Shown here one piece after another: positions 14,960-16,876 of a stretch of 64,000 nt of DNA. The DNA comes from Thiotrichaceae bacterium (GTDB lineage: Bacteria; Pseudomonadota; Gammaproteobacteria; Eutrophobiales; Eutrophobiaceae), in contig DUBV01000022.1 of the NCBI GenBank assembly GCA_012960105.1, positions 1 through 64,000 on the forward strand, read 5' to 3'. Position numbers and translations under genes: made by a program. How positions within the stretch are numbered: position 1 is the first letter of the stretch; each line of letters starts with the position of its first letter. The notes below the pieces were generated by a model. It did no database searches and was not told the DNA's origin. It saw nothing but the letters and a program-made list of their open reading frames with translations.

Positions 14960-15223
14960 ATGCCTGAATCCCAACTAACTGCAGAGGCAAGTATTGCCTA
15001 TCAATCTTTCCAGAAAATGCGTGAAAGCAAACAAGTATATTTTACATTCCTGCAAGAGATAGACGTTAAATATAAATCAGATGGCGAAGCAACTAGTACA
15101 GAAACAGAAGAGTTGGGAGAACTACTCGCTGCGCATGACAAGAATGTCGCGGCATTCAATGAGGCCATGAATGCAGTTGAAGACTTTGAAGCAAGAGATG
15201 CCTTGATCAAGTTAATGTCTTGA
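14960..15223 (+). CDS. Small helical protein of unknown function at the end of the glycolytic operon
   Basis: An 87-residue acidic, mostly helical protein with no signal peptide, membrane segment or metal-binding motif that I recognise. It starts 32 nt after the aldolase stop and ends just before the operon terminator, so it is very likely co-transcribed with the glycolytic genes. Alternating charged residues and the ELGELLAAHDKNVAAFNEAM stretch suggest an amphipathic helical hairpin. I do not recognise the family and give no function. Confidence 0.7.
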   Translation: MPESQLTAEASIAYQSFQKMRESKQVYFTFLQEIDVKYKSDGEATSTETEELGELLAAHDKNVAAFNEAMNAVEDFEARDALIKLMS

Positions 15224-15279: not shown

Positions 15280-15567
15280 CTATTTATGCGCTATAGACTT
15301 ATCAGTAAATAGATAATCTTTTAATTCTTTATCAAAAGCCGGATCCTTTCTGCGTATCCACTCTAAAACCATAGCAGCATGTTCTTTTTCTTCATCTCGA
15401 TTATGCGCAAGAATAGCTTTCAGATCATCATCTTTACATGCATCAACTCTCTGGTTATACCAGTCAACCGCCTCTAACTCTTCCATTAGTGATGTGATTG
15501 CACGATGCATATCACGCGTGCTATCAGATAATTCTTCTATTGGTTCATGATAACCTTCGTTGGACAT
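15280..15567 (-). CDS. Encapsulated-ferritin-like (EncFtn family) protein without targeting tail
   Basis: The 95 residues closely resemble encapsulated ferritins: MEELEAVDWYNQRVDA at 28-43 and ILAHNRDEEKEHAAMVLEW at 52-70. The ferroxidase ligands known from the Rhodospirillum protein (Glu32, Glu62, His65) map to Glu30, Glu60 and His63 here. Such proteins form rings of dimers and oxidise iron. The classical versions carry a C-terminal peptide that loads them into an encapsulin shell. This one stops shortly after DYLFTDKS, with no such peptide, and no encapsulin gene is in the window. A small lipoprotein gene lies just upstream on the same strand. Family call strong, role inferred. Confidence 0.88.
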   Translation of the reverse strand: MSNEGYHEPIEELSDSTRDMHRAITSLMEELEAVDWYNQRVDACKDDDLKAILAHNRDEEKEHAAMVLEWIRRKDPAFDKELKDYLFTDKSIAHK

Positions 15568-15591
15568 TAGCTCTCTCCTACAAGTTAATTG

Positions 15592-15789
15592 TTATTCGCT
15601 CTGATGCTCAATCGTTCTCTGAGTATTTGCAGCTGAATCCAGAATCATACTCTCTACTGCTTTTGCTCGATCAATTGTCTCTGTAGTTTCTTTCCATACA
15701 TGATCTTTTTTGTTCTCGGTATCATCTGAACAAGCAATGAATAATGAAAATGAGATTAATAACAGGAATACTTTAATACTGCTTTGCAT
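15592..15789 (-). CDS. Small lipoprotein
   Basis: A 65-residue protein with a classic lipoprotein signal: a short basic start, a hydrophobic run and Cys at about residue 20 (LFIAC followed by SDD). Asp residues after the Cys may favour inner-membrane retention under the E. coli rule. The mature part is a short charged helix containing the stretch TIDRAKAVE. It lies 24 nt upstream of the ferritin-like gene on the same strand and probably shares its transcript. I do not know its function. Confidence 0.75.
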   Translation of the reverse strand: MQSSIKVFLLLISFSLFIACSDDTENKKDHVWKETTETIDRAKAVESMILDSAANTQRTIEHQSE

Positions 15790-15825
15790 AACACTTACCT
15801 CACTATTAATAACAGGAAACTCTGA

Positions 15826-16719
15826 TTATTTAATAAGTTTATCGCGGGCTTCCTCATATTTTGCCGCTGTGGTATTCATCACTTCATCTGGCAAACTGGG
15901 GCCAGGTGCAGTTTTATCCCAATCTAATGTTTCCAAATAATCTCGAATATATTGCTTATCAAAACTGGGAGGACTAGTTCCGACCTTATAAGACTCTACT
16001 GGCCAGAAACGAGAAGAATCCGGCGTTAATACTTCATCGATTAAAACAAGCTGATCGTTTTCATCTAAACCAAACTCAAATTTAGTATCAGCAATAATAA
16101 TATCGCGTTCCAATGCATACTCTACTGCCTGCGTATAAATCTTTAGACTTATATCTCGAACCTGTTCAGCCAGCTCCTGCCCAATTAATTTAACCGTTGC
16201 ATCAAAATCTATATTCTCATCATGATCGCCCACATCCGCTTTTGTTGCCGGAGTGAAAATAGCTTCAGGCAATTTTTCTGCTTGCTGTAAACCTTCAGGT
16301 AGTCTAATCCCACAAACAGAACCCGTTGCTTGATAATCTTTCCAACCAGAACCAATAAGATAGCCGCGTATAACTGCTTCTATTGGCAATGGTCTTAATT
16401 TACGTACTACAATAGCGCGACCATCTAATGCTTCTATATCGTCTGTATCTTTAATGACATCTTTAAGAGCAATATCCGTCAGATGGTTTGGAATAATATT
16501 TTCACAACGTTTAAACCAGAAATTTGATACTTCCGTTAAAACACGACCTTTACCGGGAACAGGATCAGGCAAGATCACATCAAAAGCGGAGAGTCGATCA
16601 CTGGTGACTATCAACATGTGTTGATCATCAATACCATAGATATCTCGGACCTTACCTTCATTGATCAATGGTAAACTTTTTATATTAGAACGATAAAGTG
16701 CGTCTGATTTGGATTGCAT
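15826..16719 (-). CDS. purC: SAICAR synthetase (phosphoribosylaminoimidazole-succinocarboxamide synthase)
   Basis: PurC joins CAIR and aspartate with ATP in purine synthesis. The start at 16719 gives 297 residues, the longer PurC type also found in yeast, as opposed to the roughly 237-residue E. coli type. The frame extends 12 codons upstream to 16755, but an AAAGG site fits the inner ATG better. Motifs are [36 protein letters not shown] and [12 protein letters not shown]. It is unlinked to the purH-purD pair 17 kb away. No PurR-type operator is obvious. Confidence 0.95.
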
Positions 16720-16876
16720 AATGTAAAAAATGAGCCTTTCTTTGTAAAGAATCATTCTCCCATATTCGCTTAATCTCGGCTATTGTTAGCTGTGGAAAGT
16801 AACATACTATGGTTGAATCATGTCCGGCCAATGCTCTACCCAACAACAATTATGGTTAAATTCAGGGATAGTAATC

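Follow-up and report, generated by a model that had tools for sequence, protein, structure and literature searches.

A short, tail-less EncFtn-like ferritin of a Thiotrichaceae bacterium belongs to a class that is usually shell-free and, in other genomes, often placed in a rubrerythrin cluster

The short EncFtn gene and its product

The window analysed here is a stretch of 64,000 nucleotides (positions 1 to 64,000 of contig DUBV01000022.1, assembly GCA_012960105.1) from a Thiotrichaceae bacterium, in which a gene for a short EncFtn-like ferritin lies beside a small lipoprotein gene and purC (Table 1). These three genes may possibly share a transcript; a scan of the locus for sigma-70 promoters yielded nothing usable.

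Table 1. Genes at the short EncFtn locus, with their positions in the window
Feature	Position	Strand	Basis or remark
Short EncFtn-like ferritin (s-FLP / Non-EncFtn class), predicted ferroxidase subunit	15280..15567	-	95 aa ORF and family profiles
Predicted lipoprotein, 65 aa, with lipobox; incidental neighbour outside the EncFtn system	15592..15789	-	24 bp upstream of EncFtn
purC (SAICAR synthetase); in congeners, the ancestral neighbour of the lipoprotein gene	15826..16755	-	Named by sequence recognition, no family search
87-aa ORF without Pfam or NCBIfam family, convergent to the EncFtn gene	14960..15223	+	ORF and profile searches

The protein matched the Pfam EncFtn-like family PF22277 with 154.5 bits (E 6e-46, against a cut-off of 27 bits) and the TIGR04535 profile with 139.5 bits (cut-off 125 bits). 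A first-pass annotation, made from the sequence alone, had stated that the metal ligands Glu30, Glu60 and His63 were intact, and this is confirmed by their alignment with Glu32, Glu62 and His65 of the R. rubrum EncFtn; in addition Tyr37 is the equivalent of the R. rubrum ferroxidase ligand Tyr39, and the entry-site residues Glu29, Glu32 and Trp36 are all found. Across 156 short and 17 tailed EncFtn sequences Glu29, Glu30, Glu32, Tyr37, His55, Glu59, Glu60, Glu62 and His63 are invariant and Trp36 is nearly so. The window protein ends at residue 95 with the motif LFTDKSIAHK and has no targeting peptide, and its end falls at about the residue at which the linker of the tailed EncFtns starts, so that the earlier statement that it stops about where a loading tail would begin holds in alignment with the tailed members. 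No signal peptide is visible. The AlphaFold2 model of the monomer (mean pLDDT 82) consists of a pair of long helices and a third, short helix, and its best Foldseek match was 3k6c.

That entry is also the closest solved structure by sequence (NE0167 of Nitrosomonas europaea, about 84% identity end to end); in the literature searched the protein appears in one paper only, for its structure, which is unpublished and is a decamer according to a 2024 review. Both proteins have 95 amino acids, the same ferroxidase residues, no tail and the same fold, and no functional difference between them is visible. The R. rubrum EncFtn Rru_A0973 (PDB 5da5), a tailed cargo protein, has the core, ligands and fold in common with the window protein, but at full length (140 aa) it carries a tail with the targeting peptide SLGIGSLK and works with an encapsulin, neither of which the window protein has; its truncated construct 1-96 is of nearly the same length as the window protein. 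Judged by its residues and length, the window protein is a typical representative of the short EncFtns without a tail, a type already known, which was called “Non-EncFtn” in 2016 and “s-FLP” in the 2024 review and which is characterised by an EncFtn core without a tail and a length of about 95-105 aa.

On a tree of 95 columns, which is poorly resolved, the window protein groups with other short forms; the short label requires about 5 changes on it, so that the tree does not establish one origin for the short forms. Broken copies of the short gene, with an internal stop or a split frame, were seen in two related genomes (L018 in G024; L022/L026 in G020), which suggests recurrent loss. Searches of phage records gave no match to the short EncFtn and a plasmid search gave seven matching records, mostly distant. 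A divergent tail-less EncFtn of 104 aa (about 45% identity) was observed in G423 and G403 (L264, L265), from a genus in which some members hold an encapsulin at a distant place.

Neighbouring genes and the distribution of encapsulin

The lipoprotein gene is co-oriented with the EncFtn gene, as first annotated, and had been taken as a hint of a different location or partner for the ferritin. Mapping how often the two genes stand together across genomes does not bear this out, with the lipoprotein adjoining a short EncFtn at none of the 156 other short-form loci, so that the adjacency is unique to the window genome among the loci read. Of 57 other relatives, 28 have a member of the lipoprotein family, which also occurs in genomes that have no short form. 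Congeners carry the lipoprotein at a locus without EncFtn, with purC nearby wherever the stretch extends far enough, and in those inspected a carbonic anhydrase gene stands between purC and the lipoprotein; this beta-carbonic anhydrase gene is missing from the corresponding interval of the window (15592-16755; compare L240 and L241). In the congeners G001 and G004 the lipoprotein is followed by the convergent 87-aa ORF and fba, with no EncFtn between them, and the 87-aa ORF is conserved after fba in these two congeners at about 74% identity. Most simply, this species would have gained the EncFtn gene at the end of a pre-existing purC-lipoprotein unit and lost the carbonic anhydrase gene from the site, the direction of both the gain and the loss being our inference. 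No conserved neighbour was found around the window gene, its close relatives showing differing neighbours, and the lipoprotein is an accidental neighbour of the short EncFtn.

Whether s-FLPs are encapsulated was left open in the 2024 review. No shell gene had been noticed near the window gene, and a search of the whole assembly of the organism (98.5% complete, 116 contigs) likewise detected no classical encapsulin (Linocin_M18, PF04454), with a positive search control; the family 2 encapsulin profile PF19307 also had no match in this genome, but its control likewise matched nowhere, so that the negative result covers Linocin_M18 shells alone. An even sample of 276 class genomes was then searched for encapsulin, and every EncFtn in it was assigned to a type from its C-terminus. 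The assignment used the length of the tail and reading by eye, since a strict targeting-peptide pattern missed 8 of the 18 tailed sequences, although most have a similar motif at their end. Tailed EncFtns were present in all 17 genomes with an encapsulin (18 loci, including one fused or frameshifted frame). Encapsulin was absent from 58 of the 62 genomes with a short form, and the remaining four each also hold a separate tailed EncFtn; over the 276 genomes the presence of a short form and that of encapsulin were independent (odds ratio 1.07, p=1). A further 50 named short-form genomes, picked from the closest relatives and thus not an even sample, contained no encapsulin, and a phylum sample added 19 short forms, with encapsulin in only two genomes, of one genus, where it is distantly placed. 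Short EncFtns are therefore usually not encapsulated and are mostly shell-free across genomes. The suggestion in the first-pass annotation of a ferroxidase outside an encapsulin is thus supported by genome co-occurrence, but not as a new arrangement, for the class has a name and a solved structure.

Two individual loci are of note in their own right. L202 (G102) encodes a 122-aa EncFtn with a Lys/Pro/Ala-rich tail, KPAAKPKAAPKAKKPTPKSE, in place of a targeting peptide, in a genome without encapsulin, and at L234 (G212) the frame of a tailed EncFtn, 246 aa long, runs toward a partial encapsulin match lying on the same strand (a fusion or a frameshift).

These distributions bear on two other accounts of where the short form acts. 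The last ten or so residues of the window protein (LFTDKSIAHK) could serve as a targeting peptide, so far unrecognised, that directs the protein to an encapsulin or some other shell; among putative targeting sequences the 2024 review includes LFTD(E/N)KPIAHE, and it states that the class can form decamers resembling encapsulated ones, and the C-terminus of the short forms is strongly conserved in both length and sequence. However, Leu86, Phe87, Thr/Ser88 and Ile92 are conserved in the tailed EncFtns too, upstream of the real tail, which indicates that the proposed motif is mostly common core, and this, together with the missing encapsulin in the organism itself, in 58 of 62 class-sample genomes and in 50 of 50 named ones, and with the separate tailed EncFtn that stands at the encapsulin in the exceptions, makes a cargo role very improbable. 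That the lipoprotein and the short EncFtn, encoded on the same strand 24 bp apart, form an envelope-associated iron-oxidising pair is scarcely credible, given that the pairing is confined to the window genome among the short-form loci read, that congeners keep the lipoprotein family at another locus near purC and carbonic anhydrase, that it also occurs in genomes lacking the short form, and that no signal peptide can be seen on the EncFtn.

Short EncFtns in the aerobic-type rubrerythrin cluster of other genomes

A cluster of rubrerythrin (RBR), the Fe-S oxidoreductase RFO and DUF3501 is already known (Cardenas et al. 2016, PMC5114695). We counted an EncFtn gene as linked to it when it lay on the same strand and within 1.5 kb of rubrerythrin, RFO or DUF3501, and the counts were taken from a DUF3501 genome search together with tblastn, as plain neighbour clustering undercounts the cluster. 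Linkage to the aerobic-type rubrerythrin cluster was found for 18 of 60 short-form loci of the class sample compared to 0 of 18 tailed loci. Of these 18 loci, 14 show all four genes in one constant order (rubrerythrin, RFO, short EncFtn, DUF3501), and the DUF3501 match there begins some 6-75 bp past the EncFtn stop. A fifteenth locus, near a contig end, had RFO, short EncFtn and DUF3501. The phylum sample gave one more clustered short form (L255). With one DUF3501 gene per genome of about 3 Mb, we estimate that well under one such linkage would be expected by chance. DUF3501 itself was found in 44 of 62 short-form genomes and 81 of 214 others (p=5e-6, uncorrected for relatedness). In three of the genomes that hold both types of EncFtn (G050, G212 and G254), the short one is in the rubrerythrin cluster and the tailed one at the encapsulin. 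The individual loci at which a short EncFtn was seen between RFO and DUF3501 are L167, L170, L174, L175, L178, L181, L183, L185, L199, L206, L210, L212, L213, L214 and L255.

The cluster-linked sequences are scattered on the (poorly resolved) tree, with 16 changes for 19 linked rows, and other short forms adjoin AhpC or peroxiredoxin genes. Of the 79 closest named relatives only 2 lie in the rubrerythrin cluster, so that the nearest kin of the window show the linkage less often than do more distant short forms. The text of PMC5114695 mentions neither encapsulin nor encapsulated ferritin, and our literature search, which did not extend to supplementary files or subscription journals, found no paper that brings encapsulin, rubrerythrin and DUF3501 together; the placing of a short EncFtn in the gap between RFO and DUF3501 was unexpected and is undescribed in the literature searched.

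The window genome differs from those in which the short EncFtn is inserted into this cluster. No RBR, RFO, DUF3501 or other oxidative-stress gene lies beside the window gene, DUF3501 was absent in a search of the genome, and the sole match of a rubrerythrin-family search was Coq7, which was rejected as a rubrerythrin candidate. The genome does carry one bacterioferritin. The link to peroxide is thus borrowed from relatives, and in the window organism the ring must work without the rubrerythrin module.

Proposed function of the short, shell-free ring

The short form is probably a decameric ferroxidase, free in the cytosol, which removes Fe2+ in oxidative stress, with the iron stored elsewhere. 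The predicted fold is one of two antiparallel helices, and dimerisation would build a symmetric di-iron site from Glu30, Glu60, His63 and Tyr37 of each subunit, the dimers then assembling into a decameric ring as in NE0167. Such a ring would oxidise Fe2+ in the cytosol without an encapsulin and, as it would have no mineral cavity, it would serve as a ferroxidase for iron and peroxide detoxification and not as a store, the Fe3+ being stored or handled elsewhere, for which the organism has its one bacterioferritin. Membership of the rubrerythrin, Fe-S oxidoreductase and DUF3501 cluster elsewhere would place the short form in the peroxide response. For the window protein a decamer with ferroxidase activity is most likely, both being known for relatives only; the peroxide role and the hand-off to bacterioferritin in this organism are, like the ring assembly and the activity, what we would infer from those relatives.

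Truncated to residues 1-96, the R. rubrum EncFtn still forms a decamer, is active as a ferroxidase and binds some 48 Fe; in vitro the truncated ring precipitates excess Fe3+ unless it is inside a shell (PMC5012862). The analogous expectation for the short form is Fe2+ oxidation without storage, and the in vitro precipitation suggests that an unshelled ferroxidase needs an iron acceptor. The analogy with this ring, taken together with the rubrerythrin linkage, favours a lowering of cytosolic Fe2+ during peroxide stress. A different view is that the main role of the short form is that of a peroxidase or an electron-transfer di-iron protein, acting on H2O2 in a rubrerythrin-like manner, or else of an iron chaperone, and not of an O2-using ferroxidase. 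Its frequent place in the rubrerythrin, RFO and DUF3501 cluster and near peroxiredoxins in relatives would fit such a protein, as would the finding that free EncFtn is slower than apoferritin and that its reaction stops short of completion (PMC5012862). However, the ferroxidase and entry-site residues are invariant and shared with the tailed EncFtns, and Fe2+ oxidation is seen with the truncated R. rubrum ring (PMC5012862), which leaves a primary peroxidase or chaperone role unlikely.

More tentatively, and with rather less confidence than in the ferroxidase reading, the short shell-free EncFtn may belong to the aerobic-type rubrerythrin system as a fourth component of general occurrence, the open-ring ferroxidase removing Fe2+ and rubrerythrin the peroxide. 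The window organism would then be among those that keep the ring alone, and where a genome has both types, the tailed ring would serve the encapsulin and the short ring the peroxide response.

What this analysis adds to a known class is a genome-scale case for shell-free short EncFtns and a linkage to the rubrerythrin cluster that had not been expected. The relatives of the window protein answer at genome scale the question, raised in the 2024 review, of whether short EncFtns are encapsulated, the answer being mostly no; the label “encapsulin-associated” mislabels a large class of these proteins, and the rubrerythrin peroxide module is a suggested place to look for the function of short EncFtns.
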